In this document: in pieces, positions 2,161 through 19,608 of the stretch
Layout: each line of letters opens with the position of its first letter
How positions within the stretch are numbered: position 1 is the first letter of the stretch
Assembly (NCBI GenBank): GCA_026129485.1
Contig: JAHCHY010000011.1
Coordinates: 87,930-151,929, forward strand
Reading direction: 5' to 3'
Source of the DNA: Cyclobacteriaceae bacterium
GTDB taxonomy: Bacteria; Bacteroidota; Bacteroidia; Cytophagales; Cyclobacteriaceae
DNA: 64,000 bases
Position numbers and translations under genes: made by a program
Notes under the pieces: model-generated
What the model was told of the DNA's origin: nothing
The model's database searches: none
The model's input: only the letters and a program-made list of their open reading frames with translations

Positions 2161-2161
2161 G

Positions 2162-2392
2162 TTAGGCTGCGATTAAAACAGGATGATCCATTTTTGTGAC
2201 TGCATACAGCAAGCAAGCTTTTATATCTTCTGCTTCAAGCGCTGGATGTTCTTCCAGAATTTGTTCTGTAGTCATGCCATAAGCAAGCAACTCCAGCACG
2301 TCAGTTACTTTAAAACGCATGCCACGAATGCACGGGCGTCCCCCGAATTGTTTCGGGTTGTGTGTAATTCTTTTTAACGATTCCAAATTCAT
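2162..2392 (-). CDS. DUF433 antitoxin
   Basis: 76 residues. The pattern RITHNPKQFGGRPCIRGMRFKV is diagnostic of DUF433 (COG2442), a winged-helix or HTH-like small protein; the GxPCIRGxR core is intact. It ends 1 bp before the DUF5615 PIN-like gene, forming a two-gene operon in antitoxin-first order. By family precedent it neutralises the toxin and may bind the operon promoter. Its start is separated from the + strand acetyltransferase by a 209-bp divergent spacer that holds one copy of the 18-bp repeat. Confidence 0.87.
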   Translation of the reverse strand: MNLESLKRITHNPKQFGGRPCIRGMRFKVTDVLELLAYGMTTEQILEEHPALEAEDIKACLLYAVTKMDHPVLIAA

Positions 2393-2512
2393 AGGACTAA
2401 AGTACTCAAAAATGAATGTGTCCGCAAATTTTTCTGTTTTAAAGTCTTCCCTCGATCATCAGATCGAGATGCTGGCTTTATCTATTCGATTTTCCGGGTT
2501 TTACAATCCGGA

Positions 2513-2530
2513 TTTCTTTTTCATACAATT
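2513..2530 (+). promoter_or_regulatory. 18-bp repeat, copy A
   Basis: TTTCTTTTTCATACAATT differs at one base from the consensus TTTCGTTTTCATACAATT. It lies 71 bp ahead of the GNAT gene at 2602. No good TAnnTTTG box is seen at the usual 18-21 bp distance, so this copy may be decayed or use a different -7 box. Confidence 0.6.
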
Positions 2531-2601
2531 TTAAGTCCGCCTGTTTTATCAGGTTTACACTGCCTTGGTTTCTTGGAGCCTAAAATTTTATATTTTATAG
2601 T

Positions 2602-3117
2602 ATGATAATCCGTAATTGCCAGTTGGCTGACGTCAATGACATTTTGATGCTGTACGAATCTGCAAGAAACCTGCAAACTCAAAAAGCAATGGTAGTCTGG
2701 CCGTCTTTTGAAGCGTCATTCATTGAAAAAGAAATACAGCAGAACAGGCAATGGAAGCTGCTGGTTGATAATAGAATTGCCTGTAATTGGGCCATTGCCT
2801 TTGAAGATAAAGATATATGGGGTGAGAAAGACAAGGGGGATTCAATCTATATTCATCGGATATGCAACAATCCCGGCTTAAGGGGCAGGCGATTCATTGA
2901 TAACATTGTAGCGTGGGCAAAAGATTACGCAAAGCAACACGACAAAAAATTCATCAGGTTAGATACATTAGGCAACAACACAAAGCTCATTCAACACTAC
3001 ACGTCAGCAGGCTTTACTTTTTTGGGAATGGTTGAGTTAACCAATACACAGAATTTACCCGGCCATTACCAAAAAGAACGCAATTGTTGCCTGTTTGAGA
3101 TTGAGCTCAATCAATAA
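2602..3117 (+). CDS. GNAT family N-acetyltransferase
   Basis: 171 residues of the GNAT acetyl-CoA-dependent N-acetyltransferase fold. IRNCQLADVNDILMLYESA at the N-terminus is the typical strand 1/helix 1 region. IYIHRICNNPGLRGRRFIDNIVAWA covers strand 4 and the pyrophosphate loop, here LRGRRF instead of the usual Q/RxxGxG/A, so the acetyl-CoA loop is somewhat degenerate. IRLDTLGNNTKLIQHYTSAGF is the classic C-terminal N...YxxxGF motif. The substrate is unknown. It stands alone, downstream of repeat copy A, with the next repeat copy right after its stop, so it is probably one transcription unit. Confidence 0.85.
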   Translation: MIIRNCQLADVNDILMLYESARNLQTQKAMVVWPSFEASFIEKEIQQNRQWKLLVDNRIACNWAIAFEDKDIWGEKDKGDSIYIHRICNNPGLRGRRFIDNIVAWAKDYAKQHDKKFIRLDTLGNNTKLIQHYTSAGFTFLGMVELTNTQNLPGHYQKERNCCLFEIELNQ

Positions 3118-3142
3118 CACCAAAAAATACGTGTTGCCTGAC

Positions 3143-3187
3143 TTTCGTTTTCATACAATTACGGGTTTCCCCGTTCCCGTAAGTTCG
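3143..3187 (+). promoter_or_regulatory. 18-bp repeat, copy B, with -7-like box
   Basis: A perfect TTTCGTTTTCATACAATT at 3143-3160 is followed after 19 bp by TAAGTTCG (3180-3187), one mismatch from the Bacteroidota -7 consensus TAnnTTTG. The ATG at 3192 is only 4 bases past this box, so the message would be leaderless or nearly so. Confidence 0.65.
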
Positions 3188-3191
3188 TGCT

Positions 3192-4046
3192 ATGAAGCGC
3201 AAGGAATTTATTGCCACATCGGCTTTATTAGCTACATCGCTGGCAGCGTTACATCCTGCACGTGCAGGTAATAAAACTGAAACCCCGGAAGTCAAAATAA
3301 AAAAGCTGTCGTGGGCTGGCATCCAAATTGAATGTGATGGCACAACTTTGTTCATTGACCCCTGGATAAGCAAGGAGATATGGGGCGATAAGTGGAACAA
3401 GCCGGTGATTAATCCTGTAAGCAATACATCGGTAAATCACATAGCCGTTACACACATTCACAACGACCATCTCGACCCGAAGGCCATTCGTATGATCAAT
3501 GGAGATAAGCGGGGAAACATTTATGGCGGCTCCAAAACCGCAGGCGGCATCGCCTCGCATGGCTTGTATGAAACAAAAATTGCCGAGCTGTGGGAACCCA
3601 TGCTGTTAAGCTCCGGTAAGATGACGCTCATTGCTGTACCTGCTGTGGATTTTTCGGGAATTGAACAGGTCTCATGGGTAATCCGCGCAGGAGATAAAAC
3701 TTTGTTTCATGGCGGGGATACTATATGGCATGGATACTTTCATAAAATATCATACGGCTACGGGCCTTTCGATGTGGTTTTTCTCCCGATTAACGGGGTA
3801 GATTTTTTACAACTTAAACCGGTTACACATATTCCTGCAACGCTTAATCCCGTTCAGGCGGCAACAGCAGCGGAGGTATTGAGAGCTAAGTTGGTAGTCC
3901 CGATTCATTATGGAGTAAATAATCCGGGTGTGTATGAAGAGTTTCCGAATGCAGAAGATGTGTTTATAACAGAGTGCAAAAAAAGAAACTTGCCTGTGGA
4001 GGTGTGTGAACAAGGAAACTGGTTAGCGTGGAAATCTAACAGGTAG
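3192..4046 (+). CDS. Exported metallo-beta-lactamase-fold hydrolase (UlaG-like)
   Basis: 284 residues. The N-terminus (MKRKEF, then an Ala/Leu/Thr stretch to about residue 25) looks like a signal peptide. THIHNDHLD at residues 87-95 is the HxHxDH metal site (H88, H90, D92, H93). FHGGDTIWH supplies the bridging Asp and HYGVN the last His. It aligns best with the MBL-fold metal-dependent hydrolase group of UlaG and NAPE-PLD-like proteins, so it probably cleaves an ester, lactone or phosphodiester with two metal ions. It is the first gene of a tight set with an S41 peptidase (18 bp gap) and an FtsX-like permease (13 bp gap), driven by repeat copy B. Confidence 0.85.
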   Translation: MKRKEFIATSALLATSLAALHPARAGNKTETPEVKIKKLSWAGIQIECDGTTLFIDPWISKEIWGDKWNKPVINPVSNTSVNHIAVTHIHNDHLDPKAIRMINGDKRGNIYGGSKTAGGIASHGLYETKIAELWEPMLLSSGKMTLIAVPAVDFSGIEQVSWVIRAGDKTLFHGGDTIWHGYFHKISYGYGPFDVVFLPINGVDFLQLKPVTHIPATLNPVQAATAAEVLRAKLVVPIHYGVNNPGVYEEFPNAEDVFITECKKRNLPVEVCEQGNWLAWKSNR

Positions 4047-4064
4047 CTATAAGACTTCTCTCTG

Positions 4065-5738
4065 ATGAACAACCGACTCATTCAACTATTCCTCTTTAGC
4101 CTGTTCATTTTCCCGGTATGTGCCCAGGCACAATCATTAACAGAAATTGAAGCAGCTTATGCGGCAAACACCAAACGGGATTGGCCGGAAGCGATTCGTC
4201 TTTTTACTGAATTAAAGAGTAAAAATCCGTACAATCCGCAATATGCCGTCCGCCTTGCTTTCGCCTTACAGTATGCAGGTAAATACGCTGAATCTGTTGA
4301 TGCGTTTAAGGATGCTCTTAAAGCCGGGCCATGGCCGGACATCTACTGGTATCAGATCGCTGTCAGCAATGCAAAAATGAACGATACTGAGAATGCAGTT
4401 GCGGCATTAAAAAATTCGGTAGCTAAAGGATGGCCGGATTATCAAAGGTTAGAGCATGATAAAAATTTTGAATCAATACGAACTCATCCTGAGTTTTTAA
4501 AGATGCTTGGCAAAACGCTTCCCGATAATGCAACACGTACCGAACGATGGCTTGCCGATTTCAGCTTCCTTGATTCAAAGCTAAAGCTGTTGCATTTTAA
4601 TCTGTATAACAGGCACTCACCTGAAACATGGAACAGGCTTGAGCAGGAAATCAGGAAAGGAATACCGCATTGGAGTGATAACAAAATTATTTGTGCATTA
4701 ATGAAATACGCTGCACTCGCAGGAGAAGGCCACACCAAGGTCATTCCACCGAAAGAGGGCAACAATTCTTTTCATGCCATACCCGTTGTGTTGTACGATT
4801 TTACAGACGGGATTTACATACTCAATACAATACCTGAATACGGGGAATACGTTGGGAAGAAAGTTACTGCTATCGGAGGTGTGTCCGTTCGTGAGTTATT
4901 TGATAAGTCGTACCCGTATGCAGGCCATGAAAACGACTTTCATCATAAAAAATTCAGTATGCGTTTTTTAACGATGGCTGAATTATTAAAGGACATGGGA
5001 GCAAACGTAAGCGCTGCTGAAATCCCTCTTACCATAGAAACTTCCCCGGCCCGGGCAACCACAATCAAAATAAAAACTAATACACTCAAAGAAGCAGAAG
5101 ACATTCCGAAAGAAAAGTGGGTGGCTATGAATGTTGGTTCTGTGAATGACCTTCCGTTTTACCTGCAAAAGCCTGACGATGATTTCTATTTTATTCCCGA
5201 TACGCTGAACAGCCTGATGTACCTGAAAATAAAATACATTGTCAACCAGGACAAATTACGTTTTTCGGAATTTACCGATTCCGTCTTTTCGCTCATTGAC
5301 CGTAAAGGATTAAAGCGTTTGGTGCTCGACCTGCGCGACTGTGGCGGAGGAAATTCAAACCTGAATCAGCATGTACTTAATCATATCCTGAAACGGCCTG
5401 CTCTTAACACAAGCGATAATTTTTTCACGGTTATCGGGCGCAATACCTATTCAGCCGCCATTAACTTAGCCAACGACCTTGAATACAGGACAAACACTAC
5501 GTTCATTGGCGAACCTACGGGCAGCAGCCCCAACTATATCGGTGAATCAAATGTGCTTCGCCTGCCTTACAGCCAATTATACTTAATCATATCCAATCGC
5601 TATCACCAGGGAGGAGCAAACAATTCGTTAGACAAAAGGCCGTGGATAGCCCCGCATATTTTCATTGAACCTGCTTCGGCAGATTACCGGTCGAATGCCG
5701 ATCCTGTTATGAAGTTTATTTATAAAACATGGAAATAA
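4065..5738 (+). CDS. Exported TPR-S41 family serine peptidase
   Basis: 557 residues. A signal peptide ends near AQAQS (about residue 24). Residues ~25-150 hold TPR-like repeats (AIRLFTELKSKNPYNPQYAVRLAFALQYAGKY). The C-terminal half is an S41 (C-terminal-processing/tricorn) peptidase core: LVLDLRDCGGGNSN, then IGRNTYSAAINLAN with the probable nucleophile near S463, then FIGEPTGSSPNY. The region between contains a PDZ-like stretch (KVTAIGGVSVRELFD). The usual catalytic Lys position is not obvious, so activity is less certain than fold. It sits between the MBL hydrolase and the permease in one operon; periplasmic peptide turnover is plausible. Confidence 0.8.
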   Translation: MNNRLIQLFLFSLFIFPVCAQAQSLTEIEAAYAANTKRDWPEAIRLFTELKSKNPYNPQYAVRLAFALQYAGKYAESVDAFKDALKAGPWPDIYWYQIAVSNAKMNDTENAVAALKNSVAKGWPDYQRLEHDKNFESIRTHPEFLKMLGKTLPDNATRTERWLADFSFLDSKLKLLHFNLYNRHSPETWNRLEQEIRKGIPHWSDNKIICALMKYAALAGEGHTKVIPPKEGNNSFHAIPVVLYDFTDGIYILNTIPEYGEYVGKKVTAIGGVSVRELFDKSYPYAGHENDFHHKKFSMRFLTMAELLKDMGANVSAAEIPLTIETSPARATTIKIKTNTLKEAEDIPKEKWVAMNVGSVNDLPFYLQKPDDDFYFIPDTLNSLMYLKIKYIVNQDKLRFSEFTDSVFSLIDRKGLKRLVLDLRDCGGGNSNLNQHVLNHILKRPALNTSDNFFTVIGRNTYSAAINLANDLEYRTNTTFIGEPTGSSPNYIGESNVLRLPYSQLYLIISNRYHQGGANNSLDKRPWIAPHIFIEPASADYRSNADPVMKFIYKTWK

Positions 5739-5751
5739 TAACATCTGCGTT

Positions 5752-8169
5752 ATGCTAAAAAATTATTTTATCACAAGTCTTCGTGCAGCTTTTAAGCACA
5801 AGTTCTTTGCTGCCCTTAACATATCCGGCCTGGCCGTTGGGCTTGCTGTTGGTATGCTGATACTTCAGTATGCAACATACGAATTGAGCTATGACCAATT
5901 TCATATTAAGAAAGACAGGATATTCAGGGTTGATCACACTTTTTTAAAAAATGGTGAAGTTGATTTTCAGACTGCCAAAACATACCCCCGCGTTGGCCCT
6001 GCTATGATGGACGAGTTCCCGGAAGTTGAACAATATTGTCGCTTTTTAGGGAAGTATCGGGGAGGGGTCGTCAGGTATGAGGATAAGAGTTTTCGTGAGC
6101 AAAATCTGTTTTATGCCGATACAGGGTTTTTCAAGGTATTCTCTTTTCCCTGGCTGGAAGGCGATAAGGAAACGGCTCTCCGGGACATCCATACAGTTAT
6201 TATAGATGATCGTATCGCAAAAAAATACTTTGGCAACGAAAGTGTAATAGGTAAAAGAATTACTGTGGGAAGTATGGACGGGCTGGAAGAATTTGAAGTG
6301 CGCGGTGTGTTCCATTGCCCCGATAATTCGCACATTAAGCTTGATTTTATCTTTTCATATACTTCATTGATCAGCCTTTGGGGCGAAGATGCGCATAACC
6401 GGTGGGGTTGGTATGATTTTCAGACTTACCTGTTATTAAAACCCGGTGTTCATGTGCCTTCACTCACTTCCAGGTTTTCTGCATTTGTCGATAAGAACGG
6501 TGGTGATAGATTGGGCAGCAAGCGTGTACAGTTGTCGTTGCGCCCGCTAACGGATATTCACCTGAATTCTCACCTGATGATGGAGGCTTCTGTGAATGGT
6601 AATAGCAGGGCGGTGTATTTTTTGATCATTCTTGCAGTTGCAGTGCTGGTAATAGCCTGGATTAATTTCATCAATCTTGCTACCGCCAGGGGAATGGAAC
6701 GTGCCAAAGAAGTGGGCATCAGAAGACTATCCGGTTCCACACGGCTACAGTTGGCATTTCAATTCATTCTGGAAGCATTCCTGATTAATGGTACTGCGCT
6801 GGTTTTAAGCTTGATCCTGATCTACACATTTCTTCCCTTGTTCAACGAACTGACCGGTAAACAATTTGATAATTCCTTATTCTTTGAATTTTCATTTTAT
6901 TCAAAGCTGCTTGTCTTGTTTATTTCAGGCTCACTTTTTTCAGGCTTTTATCCTTCGCTGGTTCTTTCTTCTTTTCAACCGATCAAAGTTCTTAAGGGTT
7001 CTCTGAAATATTCTGTAAAGGGTCTGTTATTCAGGAAAGGACTTGTTGTTGCACAATTTTGCGCTTCTGTAATTCTCATTGCAGGCACAATAATTATTTA
7101 CAATCAAATGACTCATATCCAGTCGATTGAAACGGGGATAGATATGGAGAACACACTCGTTGTGAAGGCTCCTGATGTTATTACGGAAAGAGATGCATAC
7201 ATGAGGTCGCTGGATGCTTATAAACAAGAGATGCTGAATGACTCCCGCATAAAAGAAGCCTCGCTTACATCCGAAATTCCGGGCAGGCAGGTAAGCTGGT
7301 ATGGCGGAGGCAAAAGAATCGGGATTGACCAGGACGACCCTACGGTTATCCTGTTCCTGACCACAATGGACGAAAATTATTTCAGTGCGTACCAGATTGA
7401 CATGGTTGCAGGCCGTCCATTTTCAAAAGACAGCCGTGAGGATTCCACAAACATTATTGTAAATGAAAAAGCAATTCAGCTATTGGGGTTTGAAAATGCA
7501 CAGGAAGCTGTTCACGAAAAACTGCTTCTGCGGGGAGATACATTTACGATAATCGGTGTTGCTGAAAATTACTATCACGAAAGCCCCAAAGAAGATTACA
7601 AGCCGTCCGCTTATCTTCTTTCTTCGGAAGAACGATCGTTTTTTACTTTCAGGTATCAGGCAGATTCTGAAATAGAATCGCTTCAAAGGGCTGAATCATC
7701 TTTCAGCAGGTTATTTCCCGGGGTTCCTTTTGAATACTTCTTTCTCACAGATTTTTATTCAACCCAATACTCGCAGGATAAAAACTTCCTGAAATCCTTC
7801 ATGGTATTTGCTTTGATAGCGATAGTCATCGCTTTACTTGGTCTTTTTGGCCTTAGTTCTTATATGATCGTACAGCGCACCAAAGAAGTGGGTGTAAGAA
7901 AGGTTCTTGGTTCTTCATCGGGCGATATTTTCGTGCTCTTTTTAAAAGAGTTTTTCACACTGATAGTCATAGGAAACCTTATAGCTATTCCCTTGGTCTA
8001 TCTCTTTATGGAGCAATGGCTGAATGAATTCAGTGAGCGGATAACTATTGGGGCAGGTGTTTTCATTATAACAACTGTCGGCACTTTGTTGCTTGCTTTA
8101 TCGACAATCAGCTTTTACGCAATAAAGGCCTCGAAATTAAACCCTGCCAAAGCATTGAGATATGAATAA
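5752..8169 (+). CDS. FtsX/MacB-like ABC transporter permease
   Basis: 805 residues, the typical size of the Bacteroidota double-length permease family. The start MLKNYFITSLRAAFKHKFFAALN is the standard opening, followed by TM1, a large periplasmic domain (to about residue 280), three TM helices with ERAKEVGIRRLSGSTRLQ, a second soluble domain, and a C-terminal TM group with RTKEVGVRKVLGSSSGDI. The two copies of the KEVGxR(K/R)xxGS coupling motif show the internal duplication. No ATPase gene is adjacent, so its partner must be encoded elsewhere. It follows the S41 peptidase by 13 bp. Members of this family usually move lipoproteins, peptides or toxins, or transmit force across the envelope. 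Confidence 0.88.
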   Translation: MLKNYFITSLRAAFKHKFFAALNISGLAVGLAVGMLILQYATYELSYDQFHIKKDRIFRVDHTFLKNGEVDFQTAKTYPRVGPAMMDEFPEVEQYCRFLGKYRGGVVRYEDKSFREQNLFYADTGFFKVFSFPWLEGDKETALRDIHTVIIDDRIAKKYFGNESVIGKRITVGSMDGLEEFEVRGVFHCPDNSHIKLDFIFSYTSLISLWGEDAHNRWGWYDFQTYLLLKPGVHVPSLTSRFSAFVDKNGGDRLGSKRVQLSLRPLTDIHLNSHLMMEASVNGNSRAVYFLIILAVAVLVIAWINFINLATARGMERAKEVGIRRLSGSTRLQLAFQFILEAFLINGTALVLSLILIYTFLPLFNELTGKQFDNSLFFEFSFYSKLLVLFISGSLFSGFYPSLVLSSFQPIKVLKGSLKYSVKGLLFRKGLVVAQFCASVILIAGTIIIYNQMTHIQSIETGIDMENTLVVKAPDVITERDAYMRSLDAYKQEMLNDSRIKEASLTSEIPGRQVSWYGGGKRIGIDQDDPTVILFLTTMDENYFSAYQIDMVAGRPFSKDSREDSTNIIVNEKAIQLLGFENAQEAVHEKLLLRGDTFTIIGVAENYYHESPKEDYKPSAYLLSSEERSFFTFRYQADSEIESLQRAESSFSRLFPGVPFEYFFLTDFYSTQYSQDKNFLKSFMVFALIAIVIALLGLFGLSSYMIVQRTKEVGVRKVLGSSSGDIFVLFLKEFFTLIVIGNLIAIPLVYLFMEQWLNEFSERITIGAGVFIITTVGTLLLALSTISFYAIKASKLNPAKALRYE

Positions 8170-8185
8170 GAATTTTTTAAGGCCA

Positions 8186-8203
8186 TTTCGTTTTCATACA
8201 ATT
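8186..8203 (+). promoter_or_regulatory. 18-bp repeat, copy C
   Basis: A perfect TTTCGTTTTCATACAATT lies 17 bp after the permease stop and 106 bp ahead of the TlpA-like gene at 8310. No convincing TAnnTTTG box is seen 18-21 bp downstream. The longer leader here differs from the other copies. Confidence 0.6.
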
Positions 8204-8309
8204 ACAAGCTATTCTGCTTAAATGCGATTATGTGGTTGTTGTACTTTAACCTTAATTAACATGAATTACTTTATTATGAAGCAGCCTTCATCTTAATTTT
8301 GAAATTATA

Positions 8310-9236
8310 ATGAAGGACGCTATGAAAAACCGCAACAAACTAATTTTATTCTTGCTTCTATTTTTTCTTACAGAAAATATTTTAGCGCAACAGCAAGTTC
8401 ACTACCTGCTAAAGAGCAGTGGTAAGCGCATAACAAAAACTCAACTTGACAGCCTATCGGCTGCGCACGATAATAAATTGAAATTTAATTTTAAAAAGGA
8501 AGGAGAACAGCAAATTGTCGAGATTGAGCTTCCCGGTGAGGATAAATCAAATGACCGGACTTCCTTTACAAGAGAGGGAAATGCTGCCTCAACGCAATCA
8601 TCACAACTGCTGGGGAATAGAACTTATAAGGACGCAACGGGAAAAATTATTTCCAATGAAGAGTTCAAGGCGAAAACAAAGTCAGGGGAATTTACTGCAC
8701 GCTATGAATTAACGAAGAACGAATCGGACACATACGATGTTACTTATTTCCTTGTTCCTAAGGAAGATGCGAAAATAAAACAATCGAATGAGTTGAACGA
8801 CTTCACCGGTAAGCTGATAAATACCAAGCTGCCGGCATTCAGGTATGAAACATTAGATGGAAAGCATATAGACTCTAATCTCCTGTCAGGGAAAATATTG
8901 GTATTAAACTTCTGGTTCATTGGCTGCAAGCCATGCCAGGAGGAAATCCCTTTGCTGAATGAAGTCGTTCAGCAGTATAAAGACCGTGCGGACATTGTCT
9001 TTGTGGCTCCTGCGCTGGATAAAGCTGAACCACTAACAAAGTTTCTCGCAAGAAAAACGTTTTCGTATCAGGTTGCTCCCAACTCCAATGATTTGCATAA
9101 AAGCCTTGACCTGTACGCATACCCTACACACATCATCGTAGATAAAAATGGAATTATACGTGATGTATTCATAGGCGCTACTCCGGATATTAAAAGTAAA
9201 CTCACTGATGCGATTGAGGCGGCTATGAAAAAATAA
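8310..9236 (+). CDS. TlpA-like thioredoxin-fold protein, exported
   Basis: 308 residues with a signal peptide (hydrophobic core about residues 11-22, cleavage near ILA-QQQ). Residues ~30-160 form a domain with no recognised family. Residues ~170-305 form a TlpA/ResA-type thioredoxin domain with KLPAFRYETLDGK at its entry, the active site FIGCKPCQEE (C206, C209), and YPTHIIVDKNG carrying the cis-Pro. It probably reduces or exchanges disulfides in the periplasm. The start at 8310 is taken as annotated; an in-frame ATG at 8322 is equally plausible. It stands alone between repeat copies C and D. Confidence 0.85.
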   Translation: MKDAMKNRNKLILFLLLFFLTENILAQQQVHYLLKSSGKRITKTQLDSLSAAHDNKLKFNFKKEGEQQIVEIELPGEDKSNDRTSFTREGNAASTQSSQLLGNRTYKDATGKIISNEEFKAKTKSGEFTARYELTKNESDTYDVTYFLVPKEDAKIKQSNELNDFTGKLINTKLPAFRYETLDGKHIDSNLLSGKILVLNFWFIGCKPCQEEIPLLNEVVQQYKDRADIVFVAPALDKAEPLTKFLARKTFSYQVAPNSNDLHKSLDLYAYPTHIIVDKNGIIRDVFIGATPDIKSKLTDAIEAAMKK

Positions 9237-9251
9237 TGAGGTAAAGCAGCG

Positions 9252-9296
9252 TTTCGTTTTCATACAATTCCGGGTTTACCTGTTTCCATACGTTTG
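9252..9296 (+). promoter_or_regulatory. 18-bp repeat, copy D, with -7 box
   Basis: A perfect repeat at 9252-9269 is followed after 19 bp by TACGTTTG (9289-9296), an exact TAnnTTTG match. The following bases CCGGGTTTACC resemble ACGGGTTTCCC after copy B, so similarity extends a little past the 18-bp core. The ATG of the next gene is 28 bp past the box. Confidence 0.75.
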
Positions 9297-9324
9297 TACT
9301 ATACTCTGAATGTAAAAGCAAACA

Positions 9325-9792
9325 ATGAGAACAGTAATCATCATTTTTTTACTTGCAGCCAGCTTAACAAGTCAAGCACAAACTCCGGAAGAAGCAGCCA
9401 TTAGCGCCATTAAAAAGCTCTCTGAAAAATTCTCATCGGATTACATGAACTCCGATTTTCAGGCTATTGCCAATGCATACACAGAAGACGCGGTTATCCT
9501 GTCACCGGGCAAGGATGTTATTGTTGGCCGGAAGGCGATTTTTGATTTCTGGAACGGCCTGCCGCGAACATCCAAATTATTAATGCACAGGATTGAACCC
9601 GATACTATTTTTCTTGTCGGTAACGAGATACAGGAATACGGTTATTACTATGCGCAATCACAAAAGCCCGGGGAAGAAGCCTCTCCTGTCTTTTCAGCTA
9701 AATACTTTATCATCTGGAAGAAGGATGAAGCCGGCAACTGGAAAATGAAAATGGATATGTGGAATGGCAGGAATCCTGATTGGAGTAAGTAA
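9325..9792 (+). CDS. SnoaL/DUF4440-like exported protein
   Basis: 155 residues: a short signal peptide (cleavage near SQAQT, residue 19), then a cone-shaped NTF2-like fold typical of DUF4440/SnoaL. Visible signatures are FSSDYMNSDFQAIANAYTEDAVILSPGKDVIVGRKAI and the C-terminal strands KYFIIWKKDEAGNWKMKMDMWNGR. Such proteins act as small-molecule isomerases, lyases or binding proteins, and the ligand cannot be predicted. It is preceded by repeat copy D with a clear -7 box and followed after 43 bp by a serine hydrolase, likely in the same transcript. A related lipoprotein occurs at 14408. Confidence 0.8.
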   Translation: MRTVIIIFLLAASLTSQAQTPEEAAISAIKKLSEKFSSDYMNSDFQAIANAYTEDAVILSPGKDVIVGRKAIFDFWNGLPRTSKLLMHRIEPDTIFLVGNEIQEYGYYYAQSQKPGEEASPVFSAKYFIIWKKDEAGNWKMKMDMWNGRNPDWSK

Positions 9793-9835
9793 AACTTTTT
9801 AGACCACTCCTGCATCATTACAGAAATCTCCGTCT

Positions 9836-11281: not shown

Positions 11282-11325
11282 GGCTATTTCGGAATTTAGC
11301 CGATCTGGTCATTAATGCCTTATGG

Positions 11326-12240: not shown

Positions 12241-12290
12241 ATAAGGTAGAGCGAAGCCATCAAAGATAAAGATTGCCCGGCTAAAGCTCA

Positions 12291-12337
12291 TTTCGTTTTC
12301 ATACAATCCAAAGCCATTTTATTAGCTGTTACTTGTG
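12291..12337 (+). promoter_or_regulatory. 18-bp repeat, copy E, with -7-like box
   Basis: TTTCGTTTTCATACAATC (12291-12308) has one change in the last base. TACTTGTG (12330-12337), one mismatch from TAnnTTTG, follows after 21 bp. It lies in the divergent spacer between the deacetylase and the membrane protein gene at 12354 and points toward the latter. Confidence 0.65.
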
Positions 12338-12353
12338 AACAGAAAAGTATAGC

Positions 12354-12956
12354 ATGAGAAGCAGGATCAATATCATTTTACTTACCCTGCCTTATTTATT
12401 GTTAGGTATTGGTCAGGTGTGGTTGTATTTTATACGTGAAAGTTTTCCTGACTTGTTTGACAGACTCGAATATGCGAAAGCAGGGTGGAACGAATCGCAT
12501 TTAATTCTGATTGTTGGCACGATACTGTTAATACAGGCTACTATTATTTTATTTCAAACTGCCCCTGAATTTTGGTGGACTAAAATCGGAGCCACGCTGA
12601 ACTACATAGGCATTTGCCTGCTAACCGGGCAATATGCTATCGACCTGCTTTTACAACCATTATTAACCTCTTCTCAAGACCCGAAAGGTTTGTATGATAT
12701 TCTGAAATCTTCAGCGTTGGTGAATCTCCTGTTTTATGATTTAGTGGCTTTGCTGTGGTTCGGGCAACTGTTTATAGCCATCGGTATCATAAGAAGTAAA
12801 CTAACGCAATTGCGAATGCCCATGGGAATTTATATGCTTGGCTTAATCCTGCTGCTGGTTGGCGGAGCTATTCACCCCATCATTTCAAGAGTCAGTTACT
12901 TTATCCTGGCTGCCGGAATGCTGCTTACCGGTGTGCGGTTACAGAAACAGGATTAA
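12354..12956 (+). CDS. Integral membrane protein of unknown function
   Basis: 200 residues with about five or six hydrophobic segments (roughly residues 8-26, 50-70, 78-100, 118-146, 156-176 and 180-196). A short loop holds KAGWNESHL. No catalytic motif or known family was recognised. It stands alone between repeat copies E and F, with a leader of about 10 bases after the predicted -7 box. Confidence 0.7.
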   Translation: MRSRINIILLTLPYLLLGIGQVWLYFIRESFPDLFDRLEYAKAGWNESHLILIVGTILLIQATIILFQTAPEFWWTKIGATLNYIGICLLTGQYAIDLLLQPLLTSSQDPKGLYDILKSSALVNLLFYDLVALLWFGQLFIAIGIIRSKLTQLRMPMGIYMLGLILLLVGGAIHPIISRVSYFILAAGMLLTGVRLQKQD

Positions 12957-12987
12957 AGAGTTTGATAAAGGCAAACGAAATACCTCA

Positions 12988-13031
12988 TTTCGTTTTCATA
13001 CAATTTCGGGAAAACAAAAGTAATGAATTTG
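12988..13031 (+). promoter_or_regulatory. 18-bp repeat, copy F, with -7-like box
   Basis: A perfect repeat at 12988-13005 is followed after 18 bp by TGAATTTG (13024-13031), one mismatch from TAnnTTTG. It lies 112 bp ahead of the TlpA-DUF3738 gene and would drive the seven-gene run 13143-17795. Confidence 0.65.
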
Positions 13032-13142
13032 CATTGACACAAACCAGCCCGAAAAGGCGATGTACTTCATCATTTTGTCATTTTTCACCAAAATAGAGGT
13101 TCAACTATATAATCACCCCAAGCATCATCTAATAAAAAACTT

Positions 13143-14378
13143 ATGATACTGTCAACGTCATTCAAGGCATCATTAAAAGAATTAGCTCTATTCTTTGCAG
13201 TCTCTATGATTTCCATTTCTTCTTTTCCGCAAAATATCAAGGAAGGGCAGCGAGCACATGAAATTAAAATAAGCACGGTTTTTCAAGGGCCTCCGTTGAC
13301 CGAGATCACACTTGAAAAACTTCACGGGAAAGTAATTGTACTGGAATTTTGGGCTACATGGTGTGCGCCCTGCATCGCAGCTTTTGACCATCTTAATAAC
13401 CTCGTTGAGTCGTTCAAAGACAAGGATGTTGCATTTATCTCAATTAGTACAGATGAAGGCTCTGACGCAGAAAAAAAGATCAAGTCTCTACTATCAAAAG
13501 TACCGTTAAGTACATGGGTTGTAAAAGACAATAGTTCCCGTTCCACTCAAACTTCATACGATGCCAATGCCCTTCCTAAAACAATAGTTATAGATAAGTT
13601 TGGGTTAATTCGATGGATTGGCGAACCAAAGAAACTTTCAGAAGAGTTGTTGAAAGAATTTCTTGAAGAGAACCCAAAGCCAATCAAGGCTTCCAATGGC
13701 ATTTCAATAAATCAAGCAGTCACAGAATTCAAAGAAAGAAATCCGACCAACGTTAGTCAGCCTGATACCGCAGTCTCGATTCTTGTAGTGGAAAGCCCAA
13801 CAAGCATGGGCGGGTTTATTTTCAAAAAGCCAAACGGTATTGAATTAAAGGGATTGGAAACGATGAAGGTTATTGAATGGTTATATGATATTCCCTCGTC
13901 CTCTATTCGTAAGAGTCAACCATTCCAGTCAAAGAACTGGAATATTATCATAAAGCATCAAGGGATAAAGGCACTTGATAAAAATAATTATAGACAATTG
14001 ATCCTTTTATCAATTGGAGTCGCAACTAAAGAAATGACTGATGAAATTGATGTGTTTGTTTTGAAATGTCCCAACGGCCCGAAAACCGGAAAAACTGCGG
14101 AGTTGGTCAAAACTATCGAGCCGGGATCTTTGCATTTAAGTTATCAGGATGGGTACCTGGTGGCATCGAAGTCAACGCTGTCTGACATTTTAAAGATGAT
14201 TGAAAGAACACAAGGTTTCTCTATTATCGATGAAACAGGTCTTGAAGGTAAGTTTGAGTTCTTAATAAGATTTACAGAGAAAGACATTAAGTCATTTACT
14301 GAAAATCTTCAGGATGCAGGCTTAATATTAGTAAAGGAGAAAAGAAAACTAAAGGTCTTGGAGGTTCAAAGCTTGTAA
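13143..14378 (+). CDS. TlpA-like thioredoxin fused to a DUF3738-like domain
   Basis: 411 residues: a signal-like hydrophobic start (about residues 12-28), a TlpA/ResA thioredoxin domain with FWATWCAPCIAAF (C74, C77) and the cis-Pro loop LPKTIVIDKFG, and a C-terminal domain from about residue 210. That domain ends with the pattern IIDETGLEGKFEFLIRF...LQDAGLILVKEKRKLKVLEV, which matches the end of DUF3738 (TIGR03435) proteins: DxTGLxGxYDFxLxW then a region ending in VxVLxIxxxE. DUF3738 has no defined function and is often found in soil bacteria near BlaR1/M56-type sensors. It is the first gene of a run of seven closely spaced genes, after repeat copy F. Confidence 0.8.
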   Translation: MILSTSFKASLKELALFFAVSMISISSFPQNIKEGQRAHEIKISTVFQGPPLTEITLEKLHGKVIVLEFWATWCAPCIAAFDHLNNLVESFKDKDVAFISISTDEGSDAEKKIKSLLSKVPLSTWVVKDNSSRSTQTSYDANALPKTIVIDKFGLIRWIGEPKKLSEELLKEFLEENPKPIKASNGISINQAVTEFKERNPTNVSQPDTAVSILVVESPTSMGGFIFKKPNGIELKGLETMKVIEWLYDIPSSSIRKSQPFQSKNWNIIIKHQGIKALDKNNYRQLILLSIGVATKEMTDEIDVFVLKCPNGPKTGKTAELVKTIEPGSLHLSYQDGYLVASKSTLSDILKMIERTQGFSIIDETGLEGKFEFLIRFTEKDIKSFTENLQDAGLILVKEKRKLKVLEVQSL

Positions 14379-14407
14379 TACCATAGGCTTTTCTATTTCA
14401 AAACAAT

Positions 14408-14854
14408 ATGAGATACCTGAAATACACCCTGCTTCTTTTTGTGTTTGCCTGTAAGCAGCCCGCAAACACAGTTAGTATTGAAGATTTGAAAAAAGAGCTG
14501 GAAGCCGTAGAACAGGCTTTTTCCGATTCGTCATTCAAAAAAGGATTTTATCATGCCATGCTTGATTTTGCAGCCGATGAGATTGTTTTATTTGAGCCGG
14601 GCGATACGGTCATTCATCGCCTGGACTTCATCAAAGAAAAAGTAAGCAAATATCCTGAAGGCAAAAGACCACCTTATACGCTTACCTGGAAAGCTGAAAA
14701 AGTTGACGTGGCTTCTTCGGGCGATTTGGGTTATACATACGGTTGGTATAAATCCGTAAGAACAGACAGCCTCGGCAAAGAGAAGATTCAGAAAGGTCTT
14801 TATAATTCGATTTGGAAAAAAATAGATGAAAGGTGGAGATTAGTAATGGATTAG
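14408..14854 (+). CDS. SnoaL/DUF4440-like lipoprotein
   Basis: 148 residues. The N-terminus YLKYTLLLFVFACKQPAN looks like a lipoprotein signal with Cys at about residue 15, although Phe at -2 is not standard. The rest resembles NTF2-like DUF4440 proteins: LEAVEQAFSDSSFKKGFYHAMLDFAADEIVLFEPGDTVIHR and the C-terminal YNSIWKKIDERWRLVMD. No catalytic residue can be assigned. It follows the TlpA-DUF3738 gene by 29 bp and precedes an SRPBCC gene by 24 bp in the same run. Confidence 0.75.
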   Translation: MRYLKYTLLLFVFACKQPANTVSIEDLKKELEAVEQAFSDSSFKKGFYHAMLDFAADEIVLFEPGDTVIHRLDFIKEKVSKYPEGKRPPYTLTWKAEKVDVASSGDLGYTYGWYKSVRTDSLGKEKIQKGLYNSIWKKIDERWRLVMD

Positions 14855-14878
14855 AGAATTGGCTAAACATAATCTAAT

Positions 14879-15481
14879 ATGAACAAAATGCAGGTCTATA
14901 TCTTTTTATGCGTTTGCTGGGCATCATCTTCAGTTTTCGCACAAGCCATAACAAAAAAAGACTCCCGGGAAACGGAGAAATCAATTAAGGTTTCTATCGG
15001 TATCAACTCACCCCTCGACAGTGTTTGGAGTCGCTGGACAAGCACAGCGGGTATCCGAAAATTCTTTGCTCCTTCATCTGTTGTGGAATTTAGACCCCTC
15101 GGCAGTTTTAACATCTATTTTACACCCGATGCCCCTGAAGGATTGAAAGGTGCAGAGGGAAACATCTTTTTGGCCATACAGGAAAAACAGATGCTTAGCT
15201 TTACATGGGACGCACCTCCGCAGTGGCCGGAAATAAGAAAGCAGCGAACATCGGTTGTCATTCGTTTTGAAAAAGTAGAAGCGAATAAAACACAAGTTAC
15301 CTTAATCCAAAGCGGTTGGGGTGTCGGAAAAGAGTGGGATGAAGTTTATACGTATTTTGGTTCAGCCTGGGGTGAAGTAGTTTTGCCATTTCTCAAATAC
15401 AGTCTTGAGGTAGCCCCTGTTGACTGGTCGGATTTTCCCAAAAACCTGCCCAAAAGTTTGCCGCCTGCACAACAGTTTTAG
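14879..15481 (+). CDS. Exported SRPBCC (AHSA1-like) protein
   Basis: 200 residues. A signal peptide (cleavage near VFA-QAI, residue 22) precedes an SRPBCC/START-like ligand-binding fold related to the AHSA1 (activator of Hsp90) group: KSIKVSIGINSPLDSVWSRWTSTAGIRKFFAPSSVVEFRPLGSF, LSFTWDAPPQWPE, and TLIQSGWGVGKEWDEVYTYFGSAWGEVV. Most members are cytoplasmic, so the export signal is unusual. Another SRPBCC protein without a signal ends the same gene run (17364). The ligand is unknown. Confidence 0.82.
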   Translation: MNKMQVYIFLCVCWASSSVFAQAITKKDSRETEKSIKVSIGINSPLDSVWSRWTSTAGIRKFFAPSSVVEFRPLGSFNIYFTPDAPEGLKGAEGNIFLAIQEKQMLSFTWDAPPQWPEIRKQRTSVVIRFEKVEANKTQVTLIQSGWGVGKEWDEVYTYFGSAWGEVVLPFLKYSLEVAPVDWSDFPKNLPKSLPPAQQF

Positions 15482-15490
15482 CAATTCAGG

Positions 15491-16525
15491 ATGAACAGCA
15501 ATTACAGTAGTATGACCGGCCTATTTATTTTTACTATATCATACGTGGCAATATCATGCGCTGTCCTGCCTGCTTATACGCCAAAAATAAAAACGCAAAA
15601 TTCAGTCAGTTCGCTTGAAGAAATTGAGTTGGGCGGTGTAAAGCAAAGTATTTTAATCAGGAGTGAGGACAAATCCAATCCCATTTTACTTTTCCTGCAT
15701 GGCGGGCCCGGAATGCCCTTAATGTATTTATCGCATACCTTTCAACGTGAACTGGAAAAAGAATTTATTGTAATACAATGGGACAGGCGGGGCGCAGGAA
15801 AATCATACAACAAACGCATTGACACGCTTACCATAACAGATGAGCAATATTATAAAGATGCCATTCAACTTATTCAATTACTTCAAACCCGATTTGAAAA
15901 ACAAAAAATATTTCTTGCCGGGCACTCGTGGGGAACTTATCTTGGTAGCCTGCTTGCTTATAAAAATCCTGAATTGTTTCACGCTTATGTCAGCATTGGT
16001 CAGGTAGTGAACAGCGACAAATCCCGCCCGTTGCAGGAAGCGTTTATCAGGAACAAAGCGAAGGAATTGAACAGGAATGATGCATTAAACGACCTTGACA
16101 AATTTGGCGTTGGTGCGTATGAAAAATGGTTGTTCAAATTTGGAGCGGAATTACATGCCGATACTTCCTACCGTCCTTTTATTAAGGCAGGAATGAAGTC
16201 GCCTGAATATTCAATGTTTGATGCCTTTAAAATATCGAAAGGAAGCAACTTTTGTTCAAAGCATATTCAATACAAATTAGTCGAATCAACTATTGAAGCG
16301 GAAATTCAGTCATATAAAATCCCTTGCTTTTTCATTGTCGGAAAATACGATATGACAACACCAGCATTGCTCATAGAAGAATACTTCAATACTGTCAGTG
16401 CACCCGATAAAAAAATAATTTGGTTTAACCAATCCGCACACTTTCCCTTTTACGAAGAAAAAGACAACTTTTTTAAAACAATGGTTGAAATTAAAAATCA
16501 GGTTCTAACTCAAAACAAAAAATAG
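15491..16525 (+). CDS. Alpha/beta hydrolase, proline-iminopeptidase-like
   Basis: 344 residues. The N-terminal hydrophobic segment ends in VAISC (Cys about 23), so it may be a lipoprotein. LFLHGGPGMP (HGGPG, residues 70-74) is the oxyanion signature of the prolyl-iminopeptidase-like group, QWDRRGAGKS follows, and GHSWGTYLG carries the nucleophile S146. A late GKYDMTTP (Asp) and NQSAHFPF (His) complete the triad. It is likely an exported esterase or aminopeptidase. The start lies 9 bp after the preceding stop and the next gene begins 2 bp after this stop, so co-transcription is near certain. Confidence 0.85.
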   Translation: MNSNYSSMTGLFIFTISYVAISCAVLPAYTPKIKTQNSVSSLEEIELGGVKQSILIRSEDKSNPILLFLHGGPGMPLMYLSHTFQRELEKEFIVIQWDRRGAGKSYNKRIDTLTITDEQYYKDAIQLIQLLQTRFEKQKIFLAGHSWGTYLGSLLAYKNPELFHAYVSIGQVVNSDKSRPLQEAFIRNKAKELNRNDALNDLDKFGVGAYEKWLFKFGAELHADTSYRPFIKAGMKSPEYSMFDAFKISKGSNFCSKHIQYKLVESTIEAEIQSYKIPCFFIVGKYDMTTPALLIEEYFNTVSAPDKKIIWFNQSAHFPFYEEKDNFFKTMVEIKNQVLTQNKK

Positions 16526-16527
16526 AT

Positions 16528-16962
16528 ATGAAAAAATACACGACATGGCTAAAGACCGCATCGGTTTTTCAGTTCATCACCGCGGTCATTCATGCCACAA
16601 GCCTTTTTCTGAAACCACCACCTGCCAATGATACCGAAAAGCAGCTCTTTGAGCTTATGGACACTTACAAGTTTGATTTCGGTGCAGGCTTTCACCGGAC
16701 AATGGGCGAGCTGACATTAGCATTGAGCGCCTGCTTTTGCTTGGTCTGTTTGCTGGGCGGTTTAATCAATTGGTACCTTATCCGGAAAAAGGCGGACACC
16801 GAAATCATGAAAGGAATAATAACCATTAACCTCGTTGTGTTTGGGATTTGCTTTGGCTTGATGGCAACATTCGCTTTCCTTCCGCCCATTGTTTTATCGG
16901 GGTTGATTTTCCTGTTTTTGATCCCCGCCCGGCTCACAATTTCCAATATCAGTAACGCTTAA
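16528..16962 (+). CDS. Small four-helix membrane protein
   Basis: 144 residues with four hydrophobic segments (about residues 10-28, 60-84, 92-112 and 114-134). Between TM1 and TM2 is a soluble loop with KPPPANDTEKQLFELMDTYKFDFGAGFHRT, including an FHRTMGELTLAL stretch that resembles the Leptospira-named LIC_13387 family (low certainty). It starts 2 bp after the hydrolase stop, in the middle of the seven-gene run. Function unknown. Confidence 0.68.
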   Translation: MKKYTTWLKTASVFQFITAVIHATSLFLKPPPANDTEKQLFELMDTYKFDFGAGFHRTMGELTLALSACFCLVCLLGGLINWYLIRKKADTEIMKGIITINLVVFGICFGLMATFAFLPPIVLSGLIFLFLIPARLTISNISNA

Positions 16963-16975
16963 ATTACCAATTAAT

Positions 16976-17353
16976 ATGACATCAAAAGATAATCTCATCA
17001 ACTGGCTCGAAATTCCTGTTACGGATATTTCGAGGGCAATGAAGTTCTACGAATCCGTTTTAGATACCAAACTGGAGTTAATGGAAATGATGGGAGCGCC
17101 TTATGCCGTCTTTCCTTATGAACCCGGGAGCGGAAAAATTTCGGGTGCGCTTGCACAAGGCGATATGTACAAACCGTCTGCCGATGGTGTCAGGATATAC
17201 CTCAACTGCCCTGATATAGAAGCGACTTTGATTAAAGTCGGGGAGGCAGGGGGAAAGGTAATCTTACCCAAAACAAAAATTGAAGACCAGGGCTATATGG
17301 CATTCTTTTCCGATTCCGAAGGAAATACAATAGGTATGCACTCCAACAAATAA
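16976..17353 (+). CDS. VOC (glyoxalase/bleomycin-resistance fold) protein
   Basis: 125 residues forming a single VOC module: NWLEIPVTDISRAMKFYESVLD at the N-terminus, YLNCPDIEATLIKVGEAGGKVILPKTKIEDQGYMAFFSDSEGNTIGMHS at the C-terminus. The second half lacks His where a metal ligand is often seen, and the N-terminal strand has Glu (LEIPV) in a usual ligand position, so metal binding is uncertain. Family members include dioxygenases, isomerases and drug-sequestering proteins. It is 13 bp after the membrane gene and 10 bp before an SRPBCC gene, a common pairing. Confidence 0.85.
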   Translation: MTSKDNLINWLEIPVTDISRAMKFYESVLDTKLELMEMMGAPYAVFPYEPGSGKISGALAQGDMYKPSADGVRIYLNCPDIEATLIKVGEAGGKVILPKTKIEDQGYMAFFSDSEGNTIGMHSNK

Positions 17354-17363
17354 TCGCGGATTT

Positions 17364-17795
17364 ATGGCAGACATATTTCATTACTTCCCTATCAACGTTC
17401 CTATTGAAAAAGTATTTGAATGCGTTTCAACCCCAAAGGGCTTAGACATTTGGTGGAGCAAAAGCTCGGCAGGCAAACCGGCAATCGGAGAAACGTATGG
17501 ACTTTTCTTTGGAGCTGAATATAACTGGGAAGCCGTTGCTTCAAAATTCGTTCCTGCCAAAGAATTTGAATTGACTATGACAAAAGCCGATTCCGACTGG
17601 ATGAATAGCAAAGTTGGCTTCACGCTCACTGACAAAAACAATGTAACGGAAGTTCATTTTTACCATACGGGTTGGAAAGAAGACAATGAACATTACAGAA
17701 TTTCTAACTACTGTTGGGCAATGTATTTACGAATACTGAAACGTAATCTTGAATTCGGAGAGGAGGTTCCGTATGAGAACAGGCTTAATGTATAG
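17364..17795 (+). CDS. SRPBCC domain protein (AHSA1-like), cytoplasmic
   Basis: 143 residues with no signal peptide. IFHYFPINVPIEKVFECVSTPKGLDIWWSKSSAGKPAIGETYGLFFG is the classic start of AHSA1-type SRPBCC proteins, and the end, HTGWKEDNEHYRISNYCWAMYLRILKRNLEFG, is the long C-terminal helix. The fold binds hydrophobic ligands. It ends the run 13143-17795 in which neighbouring genes are 2-29 bp apart. Confidence 0.83.
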   Translation: MADIFHYFPINVPIEKVFECVSTPKGLDIWWSKSSAGKPAIGETYGLFFGAEYNWEAVASKFVPAKEFELTMTKADSDWMNSKVGFTLTDKNNVTEVHFYHTGWKEDNEHYRISNYCWAMYLRILKRNLEFGEEVPYENRLNV

Positions 17796-17889
17796 ACAAG
17801 GAAATAGCAGAAATGCACCTTAGATTGTACCAGTTTGTAGTTTATAAAAACCCTATTTTTACGCATAATTTCAAATGTTTTGGTACATT

Positions 17890-17923
17890 TTTGCATTTAA
17901 ATTGCAAATATGTACTAAATTCG
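17890..17923 (+). promoter_or_regulatory. Inverted repeat and -7-like box before the AAA gene
   Basis: TTTGCA (17890-17895) and TGCAAA (17903-17908) form an inverted repeat with a 7-bp spacer. TAAATTCG (17916-17923), one mismatch from TAnnTTTG, follows, and the GTG start of the ATPase is 4 bases later. This arrangement suggests a promoter with an overlapping operator and a leaderless message. Confidence 0.4.
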
Positions 17924-17927
17924 TCTT

Positions 17928-19076
17928 GTGATACCTCGAAAAATTGAACCGCATATTCATGATCTTTTCAGGCATTTCCCTGTACTGTTCGTAACCGGGC
18001 CGAGGCAATCTGGGAAGACCACCTTAGTAAAGACATTATTTAAGCAGTTGCCGTATGTGTTGCTGGAGGTTCCTGAAACAAGACGGTTAGCCCTTGAGGA
18101 TCCGCGAACGTTCCTCGCAAATTATCCTTCAGGCGCTATCCTTGATGAGGTGCAAAATGCACCGGAATTGTTTTCTTATTTGCAAGGTATTGTTGATGAC
18201 GACCGCAGCACCAGGTTTGTTCTTACCGGCTCACAAAATTTTTTGCTCAACGAACGGATAAGCCAATCGCTTGCCGGAAGGGCAGGAGTATGTTCGTTAT
18301 TGCCGTTGTCGGTTACTGAATTGCCGCAGGCCCGGCTCAAAGCTGACGAATTTATATTCAAAGGGTTTTACCCTGAGCTTTATAGCAACCATGTTCCCGA
18401 GAGATTATTCTATCCATCCTATATACAGACGTACTTAGAGCGTGATGTGCGTTCGTTAAAAAACATAGGCGACCTTGCCCAGTTTTCTCTCTTCCTTAAA
18501 TTATGTGCGGGACGCATCGGCCAGGTGCTCAATGTAAGTTCACTGGCAAATGACGCAGGGATTTCGGTGAACACAGCCAAAGCCTGGCTCTCCGTGCTGG
18601 AAGCCAGCTACTTAGTGTACCGGCTTCAGCCTCATTATAAAAATTTCAACAAACGGCTGATCAAATCACCAAAGCTCTATTTTACGGATACTGGTTTGGC
18701 CTGCAACCTGTTAGGGATTAAAACAGCCGGGGAAATTCAGGGCCATTTCGCTATGGGGCAATTGTTTGAGAATTTTGTGATCATGGAGTGCTACAAGCAA
18801 AGGCTTAATAAAGGTATTCGCAACGGACTTTATTATTGGAAAGACAATAAAGGCATTGAGATTGACCTGTTGATTGAGAATGGAACCGAAATGATGGCTA
18901 TAGAAATAAAAGCAGGAAAAACTTTTTCACCGGATTTTTTCAAAAACCTGAGATACTGGAGCGGACTGAGCAAAGCGCCAGCAAAAAATTGTGTGGTTAT
19001 TTATGGTGGCAATAACCAGCAAATGCTTCCCTATGGAATGCTGAGAAGCTGGAGCACGATGAGCGATTTTTTTTGA
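17928..19076 (+). CDS. AAA_14 / DUF4143 ATPase
   Basis: 382 residues beginning at GTG. GPRQSGKTT (residues 24-32) is the Walker A motif and GAILDEVQNAPE the Walker B motif of AAA_14 ATPases. The C-terminal DUF4143 region carries ETYxERDV-like QTYLERDVRSLKNIGDL and the nuclease-like KDNKGIEIDLLIENGTEMMAIEIKAGKT, a degenerate PD-(D/E)xK pattern (D...EIK). This family is common, horizontally mobile and of unknown role. It has its own promoter-like sequence and stands alone between two repeat-linked units. Confidence 0.87.
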   Translation: MIPRKIEPHIHDLFRHFPVLFVTGPRQSGKTTLVKTLFKQLPYVLLEVPETRRLALEDPRTFLANYPSGAILDEVQNAPELFSYLQGIVDDDRSTRFVLTGSQNFLLNERISQSLAGRAGVCSLLPLSVTELPQARLKADEFIFKGFYPELYSNHVPERLFYPSYIQTYLERDVRSLKNIGDLAQFSLFLKLCAGRIGQVLNVSSLANDAGISVNTAKAWLSVLEASYLVYRLQPHYKNFNKRLIKSPKLYFTDTGLACNLLGIKTAGEIQGHFAMGQLFENFVIMECYKQRLNKGIRNGLYYWKDNKGIEIDLLIENGTEMMAIEIKAGKTFSPDFFKNLRYWSGLSKAPAKNCVVIYGGNNQQMLPYGMLRSWSTMSDFF

Positions 19077-19118
19077 AGCCCTCCCGATAACCAGCCTGGA
19101 GTTTTGGGAATTGAATCA

Positions 19119-19164
19119 CTTCGTTTTCATACAATTTCGTGTCCTGCCGATTTCTGTACATTTG
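19119..19164 (+). promoter_or_regulatory. 18-bp repeat, copy G, with -7 box
   Basis: CTTCGTTTTCATACAATT (19119-19136, first base changed) is followed after 20 bp by TACATTTG (19157-19164), an exact TAnnTTTG match. The DoxX start is 29 bp past the box, preceded by a GGAGG-like site at 19180-19184. It is the last full copy in the window. Confidence 0.75.
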
Positions 19165-19193
19165 TGTTTCTCTAAAAGCGGAGGCTAAATTCT

Positions 19194-19601: not shown

Positions 19602-19608
19602 TGTAAGG

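Follow-up and report, generated by a model that had tools for sequence, protein, structure and literature searches.

A private array of probable AraC-type operators in a low-GC gene island of a Cyclobacteriaceae bacterium

The DNA analysed here (the window; 64,000 nucleotides) is from the assembly of a Cyclobacteriaceae bacterium (GCA_026129485.1; 4.08 Mb in 40 contigs) and corresponds to positions 87930-151929 of contig JAHCHY010000011.1, designated C3, such that window base 1 is C3:87930. An 18-bp element is found seven times in the window, always on the + strand, with 0-1 mismatch in each copy and a + strand gene downstream. A first-pass annotation had reported these seven copies, and all were recovered at the same positions. 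In shuffled sequence, the mean number of copies was 0.08 and the maximum 1. No further copy was found in the window when up to three mismatches were allowed, in agreement with the earlier remark that no full copy lies between 20 and 64 kb. An eighth copy, before the window, is located at the start codon of the gene for an AraC-type regulator, P0001. The eight sites fall within 21 kb and are listed below with the genes next to them; N19 and similar labels give the number of nucleotides between the element and a -7 promoter box resembling TAnnTTTG.

C3:85202-86023, - strand: P0001, DUF6597 and HTH_18 domains, outside the window at the head of the cluster
C3:86023-86040, + strand: copy 8, two mismatches, at the P0001 start codon, 1.9 kb upstream of the window
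2513..2530, + strand: copy 1, one mismatch, without a convincing -7 box, upstream of GNAT gene 2602-3117
3143..3160, + strand: copy 2, N19 to TAAGTTCG, upstream of 3192-4046 (metallo-beta-lactamase fold); the unit probably also includes 4065-5738 (TPR/S41-like) and 5752-8169 (MacB/FtsX-like permease)
8186..8203, + strand: copy 3, without a convincing -7 box, upstream of AhpC-TSA/redoxin gene 8310-9236
9252..9269, + strand: copy 4, N19 to TACGTTTG, upstream of 9325-9792 (DUF4440/SnoaL-like); the unit probably also includes 9836-11281 (serine hydrolase, Beta-lactamase family)
12291..12308, + strand: copy 5, one mismatch, N21 to TACTTGTG, upstream of 12354-12956 (no Pfam match); on the other side is a divergent polysaccharide deacetylase gene (- strand, likely start 12252)
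12988..13005, + strand: copy 6, N18 to TGAATTTG, upstream of 13143-14378 (redoxin and DUF3738); the unit probably extends to 17795 (DUF4440, AHSA1, alpha/beta hydrolase, VOC, AHSA1)
19119..19136, + strand: copy 7, one mismatch, N20 to TACATTTG, upstream of DoxX gene 19194-19601; the unit probably also includes the dioxygenase-like gene next after DoxX

The earlier statement that every copy is intergenic and ahead of a + strand gene stands for the position ahead of genes. Copy 12291 overlaps a mechanically called open reading frame (ORF) with a TTG start (11326-12306, - strand). The start is more probably a later ATG at 12252, which precedes a signal-peptide-like stretch, and this copy is therefore read as located between divergent genes. 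Conservation among the copies ends sharply at the 18-bp borders and no inverted arms were found at the copies, except for one palindrome directly before 3143, and a mobile repeat was rejected on these grounds.

Five of the seven window copies (3143, 9252, 12291, 12988 and 19119) are followed after 18-21 nt by a -7 box, as first described. The box matches TAnnTTTG exactly at 9252 and 19119 and differs from it at one position in the other three, and the column sum over the spacers peaks at N19. The summed best -7 score for spacers of 17-22 was 34, a value reached by none of 20,000 random draws (mean 20.5) taken from window positions 100-20,000 and not matched for intergenic position. In Flavobacterium, TAnnTTTG is the -7 box of sigma-A promoters and is located at -12 to -5 (PMC9723704). 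In Bacteroides, this box is accompanied by TTTG at about -33, and no -33 motif could be identified in F. johnsoniae (PMC7366714). With a -7 box at -12 to -5 and N19 spacing, the element would therefore span about -49 to -32 and replace the -33 element. Overlap of a site with the upstream core element of a sigma-A promoter is the mark of class II activation and, by sequence only, is found at five of the seven copies. Class II activation would be the simplest and most likely mode of action.

P0001, at the head of the cluster, would be the most likely cognate regulator of the element in this genome. Both of its domains score above the Pfam cut-offs (DUF6597, 72.8 bits with a cut-off of 27; HTH_18, 56.8 bits with a cut-off of 33.6) and the proteins of solved structure closest to it are AraC DNA-binding domains. 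There are 18 HTH_18 genes in the genome, and P0001 is the sole one on C3. The first base of the P0001 start codon is part of the eighth copy, which is oriented away from P0001 into the cluster. On the - strand, TACTTTTG is found 26 nt before the P0001 ATG, and the eighth copy would therefore fall in the leader of P0001, an arrangement that suggests autorepression. An ATG placed relative to the element like that of P0001 was also seen on the - strand at 12940-12990, upstream of copy 6. It opens an 11-codon frame that may be what is left of a regulator start copied here.

The same element occurs beside AraC-type genes in other Bacteroidota. A search of 84,980 genomes for CGTTTTCATACAATT with TAnnTTTG 15-24 nt downstream gave eight stretches, and seven of them have a spacing of exactly N19, though ten spacers were permitted. 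Six are from Bacteroidota (Galbibacter, two Flavobacterium, two Sphingobacterium and Leeuwenhoekiella) and the others are from Bacillota and a Delongbacteria metagenome-assembled genome. At five of these six loci, the element lies a few nucleotides past the stop codon of an AraC-type gene of about 273 aa and upstream of a Flavodoxin_2 oxidoreductase gene (Pfam check made for two of the five loci). The sixth, from Galbibacter, has two copies in one AraC-oxidoreductase locus, one directly after the AraC gene and the other ahead of the gene that follows the oxidoreductase. The Sphingobacterium regulator, P0002, was used as query against 395 genomes of the phylum and relatives were found in 16. 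A core with no more than one mismatch to CGTTTTCTTACAATT is present at 14 of these 16 loci, 0-30 nt after the AraC stop codon in 12 (within 9 nt in 11), and is followed by TAnnTTTG at N19 in 13, the exception being L160 with GAAATTTG. For L149, the core is absent from its 3.8 kb and one is present within 20 kb, and L162 has only a three-mismatch site. Among 390 genomes of the family, the W-form of the element with a short -7 box matched in five, namely this genome (three sites), three with the P0002-type pair, and L171, which has no P0002-type regulator in its 3 kb. The tie of the element to an AraC-type gene in other genomes is thus a direct observation.

These loci also bear on two other ways of reading the array. 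The first-pass annotation had offered, beside an activator site, the -35 region of an alternative sigma factor, for example one of the extracytoplasmic function (ECF) group, which would account for the fixed distance to the downstream box and the place near -33. However, 18 conserved bp are long for a -35 element, and inspection by eye of the ORFs listed for window 1-26 kb and locus L144, only some of which were Pfam-scanned, revealed no sigma-factor gene. Because TAnnTTTG, the downstream box, is that of ordinary sigma-A promoters (PMC9723704) and the element accompanies an AraC-type gene elsewhere, this suggestion is not supported and we regard it as extremely improbable. The element might instead be read by the LytTR response regulator and histidine kinase pair at 20304-22242, 1.2 kb beyond the last copy, but the established LytTR site consists of paired repeats, unlike a single 18-bp element. 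At the six Bacteroidota loci of the 84,980-genome search, no such pair was seen by eye among the ORFs listed within 3.5 kb and an AraC-type gene is present in each, making control by this pair very unlikely. A look-alike pair is located at 62283-63994, on the - strand as is that at 20304-22242; a LytTR domain was confirmed by Pfam only for 20304-21044.

Regulators that share the DUF6597 domain with P0001 carry boxes of a related plan. Of the two DUF6597 paralogues of this genome, one has TGTCGCATTTTTACAATT and the other TGTCGGGTTTATACAATA at 1-2 nt past the stop codon, in both cases with a -7-like box at N19. Boxes of similar form also occur behind DUF6597 regulators on plasmids of the Bacteroidota genera Spirosoma, Emticicia, Hymenobacter, Rufibacter, Bacteroides and Parabacteroides and on a Pseudoalteromonas megaplasmid, and GGTCA-fronted boxes follow them in Rubrobacter, Leptolyngbya and Chroococcidiopsis. 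This stop-adjacent box is a feature found in the present analysis among most of the relatives examined rather than an established criterion. Among 25 DUF6597 loci, 17 pass both the shuffle and the same-locus controls for a box just after the stop codon. An earlier scoring round took in 39 of 48 loci, and the other nine were all scored in the 25-locus round. Both domains were over the Pfam cut-offs at all 18 of the 25 loci scanned (L196, L204, L205, L208, L210, L211 and L213 were left out of the scan). For the HTH_18 loci of this genome, seven of 18 were scored (10 gave no ORF by the search expression and one was too short); the one DUF6597 locus has the box, and the six other AraC genes, which served as controls without a Pfam scan for DUF6597, do not. 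In the window and the preceding 37 kb, NKTCGNNTTNNTACAAT is fully fitted by six of the seven window copies and C3:86023, and by nothing else.

The Pseudoalteromonas box, TGTCGCTTTTTTACAATT, is found 3 nt after the stop codon of the regulator at L197 (NZ_CP074588.1, 562883-566089), on a megaplasmid of the gammaproteobacterium Pseudoalteromonas piscicida. This regulator is 55.6 % identical to the DUF6597 regulator on C12 of the genome studied here, a likeness that may reflect transfer between phyla. On the plasmids at L204, L205, L208 and L210, the annotation splits DUF6597 and HTH into two genes or includes the first part alone, which suggests broken or misread regulators. No DUF6597 relatives were found in viral contigs.

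The element itself is rare. In the whole genome, nine sites were found with up to two mismatches, the seven in the window, C3:86023 and C26:17686, and none with the reversed pattern. The site at C26:17686 is inside a 271-codon ORF and has no -7 box, and hence a genome-wide regulon was not found at this threshold, which yields the cluster and one coding site. The 14-mer core with up to two mismatches gave 32+18 matches in the genome compared to 17+26 for the reversed control, and the cluster accounts for eight of the 50. Among the 62 genomes of the genus, six of the 61 others have one match each with up to one mismatch. Five of these six fall within ORFs 100 codons long or more, and at all six a -7 box at N18-21 with a score above 3 of 6 is lacking. 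They therefore look like chance matches, and conservation of the element across the genus was not found among the 61 other genomes. With regard to a phage origin, the 15-mer occurs in 89 viral stretches; of the 80 checked, only three near-identical ones have TAnnTTTG at N10-26, in each case at N18. The seven copies are a real, private array of AraC-type operators, belonging to a kind of system already known, and the private regulon served by an activator site over -33, as first proposed, is supported, with a candidate regulator just outside the window.

We consider it likely that the element is an AraC-type (DUF6597 and HTH_18) operator overlapping -33 of sigma-A promoters in class II fashion, read here by P0001. 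In this arrangement, the second helix-turn-helix (HTH) of the regulator would contact the promoter-proximal TACAATT, nearest to the polymerase, and the first HTH the TTTCGTTTTC half. The seven window copies would govern about seven transcription units. We infer binding and activation by P0001, its autorepression and the assignment of the two halves to the two helices from the sequences.

Several observations weigh against this assignment. The main doubt about P0001 as the reader of the element concerns its first recognition helix, which is unlike that of the P0002-type regulators, the owners of an identical element. The second HTH motif GYYDQ is found in P0001 and in nearly all aligned P0002-type proteins. 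P0002 itself scores 20.5 bits for DUF6597, under the Pfam cut-off of 27. A stop-adjacent box was not seen in the 110 nt after the P0001 stop codon, and a copy is present at its start instead. No close orthologue of P0001 was found in the 389 other genomes of the family at 1e-45 (six candidates scored per genome), in the 59 other genomes of the genus at 1e-40 or in the phylum samples, and the pairing of P0001 with the element is therefore seen in one genome only. Two of the seven copies (2513 and 8186) lack a convincing -7 box. Eight of the 25 DUF6597 loci fail the box test, L199, L206, L208, L209 and L212 clearly and L202, L205 and L211 as near misses. Moreover, the box consensus was refined on these same loci after viewing them, and the fair out-of-sample count is thus two of four (L210, L212, L214 and L215, fetched after the consensus was written); L210 and L214 beat all of 200 shuffles, and L215 (0.115) and L212 (0.895) did not.

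The difference in the first helix and the near identity of the element with the P0002-type one leave room for an AraC-type operator read by another protein, either one of the further HTH_18 genes among the 18 or a P0002-type regulator in a missing part of the assembly (completeness 97.96 %). However, the P0002 query gave one weak match in this genome (2.8e-7, on C6) and no orthologue in the assembled sequence, an element copy is located at the start codon of P0001, which heads the cluster, and the two DUF6597 paralogues own different boxes. We therefore regard a different AraC-type reader as unlikely. P0001 and P0002 are 26 % identical over 153 residues and do not count as orthologues. A rule relating a residue of the first helix to a letter of the box (R mostly with G at box position 2, P0001 having neither) is broken by L151 (R, yet T) and by L214-L216 (Q, yet G) and was not used as proof.

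The cluster of elements coincides with a low-GC island. The guanine plus cytosine (GC) content is 0.39-0.45 over window 1-24 kb and 0.45-0.49 beyond; before the window it is 0.44-0.48 over C3:70-86 kb and 0.41 over C3:86-88 kb. A DUF5615 PIN-like gene (1828-2160, - strand) is located near the island start, and an AAA_14/DUF4143 ATPase gene, of a type frequent in accessory DNA, directly precedes copy 7 (17928-19076). The genes of the cluster encode GNAT, metallo-beta-lactamase fold, S41-like, MacB-like permease, two redoxin, two DUF4440, serine hydrolase, two AHSA1, VOC, DoxX and dioxygenase-like proteins. Proteins of such kinds (NTF2/SgcJ-like, VOC, GNAT, DUF1772 and oxidoreductases) have also been annotated next to DUF6597 regulators in other genomes. 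We read the set as putatively serving detoxification or the response to small-molecule stress.

Such a number of sites is unusual for related regulators. Nineteen P0002-type neighbourhoods (14 of 20 kb and five of 8 kb) were scanned, representing 14 of the 16 phylum-search genomes (leaving out L147, at a contig edge, and L162, the weakest match) and five loci from the 84,980-genome search (leaving out L051, near-identical to L052). One element was found in 17 and two in the other two, with none for the reversed control, and four DUF6597 neighbourhoods of 20 kb have one site each of their own box. The operator thus seems to have spread through a small cluster of genes. The 40 nt downstream are shared by copies 3143 and 9252 (z 6.7, p 0.001, the lowest value that the test can give), 86023 and 12988 have a weakly common downstream flank (z 3.9, p 0.002, borderline given 28 pairs), and the remaining copies have only the 18 bp in common. 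Since the gene downstream of 3143 (metallo-beta-lactamase fold) belongs to a family unrelated to that of the gene downstream of 9252 (DUF4440), the promoter, rather than gene and promoter together, appears to have been copied there. A regulon and promoter duplication had been put forward as alternatives; because one pair clearly and a second weakly share flanks and the rest only 18 bp, both seem to apply. The common flanks could also mark remnants of mobile or duplicated sequence that have no regulatory function. However, only 18 bp are conserved across the seven copies, always ahead of + strand genes and in five with a -7 box at a set distance, and the position of the element is conserved in other families, so we give this explanation very little credence.

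A broader reading, for and against which we hold the balance to be even, is that DUF6597 AraC-type regulators form a cross-phylum family with a readable operator (about xGTCRnnTTTnTACAAT) between the regulator stop codon and the target gene. One member would here have gone from switching a single target to regulating several, its operator spreading, partly by promoter copying, over an acquired island. If so, the locus is a snapshot of the birth of a regulon, and growth of the regulon can be traced in the DNA of the eight-copy island. A candidate operator is also provided for a regulator domain still named as of unknown function and, if the stop-adjacent box holds, the targets and perhaps the binding preferences of many unstudied regulators would be predictable from sequence alone. 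In the literature searches made, no paper naming DUF6597 was found, the matches to fragments of the element were irrelevant by title, and neither the operator family nor its eight-fold local expansion was found in print among the matches listed.

The closest known systems are of three kinds. The asymmetric AraC-type sites of MarA, SoxS and RamA (marboxes) are about 18-20 bp long. Proteins of the AraC family contain two HTH motifs, MarA binds DNA in monomeric form, and on the class II promoter micF the RamA site is at about -41 (PMC8811837). The array shares with these AraC/XylS class II activators a two-HTH HTH_18 protein, an asymmetric site and overlap with the upstream core promoter element. 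It differs in sequence, in the Bacteroidota-type sigma-A and in the N-terminal DUF6597 domain, and the MarA/SoxS/RamA regulon is scattered whereas the eight sites here are clustered beside the regulator gene. The P0002-type regulators paired with a Flavodoxin_2 oxidoreductase in Flavobacterium, Sphingobacterium and Leeuwenhoekiella have the same element (one base being mostly A or T), the same N19 to TAnnTTTG and the same GYYDQ second HTH but, unlike the present array, one or two sites per neighbourhood, the box after the regulator stop codon, another first HTH and a Flavodoxin_2 target. The DUF6597 regulators with a stop-adjacent box (L163 and L164 in this genome and those on plasmids of Spirosoma, Emticicia, Bacteroides and others) have the same domains, a box plan ending in TACAAT, N19 and a -7 box. 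In these, the 5' half of the box is mostly xGTCG, whereas here it is TTTCG, the four 20-kb neighbourhoods examined have a single site each, and the box follows the stop codon, whereas that of P0001 is at the start of the gene.

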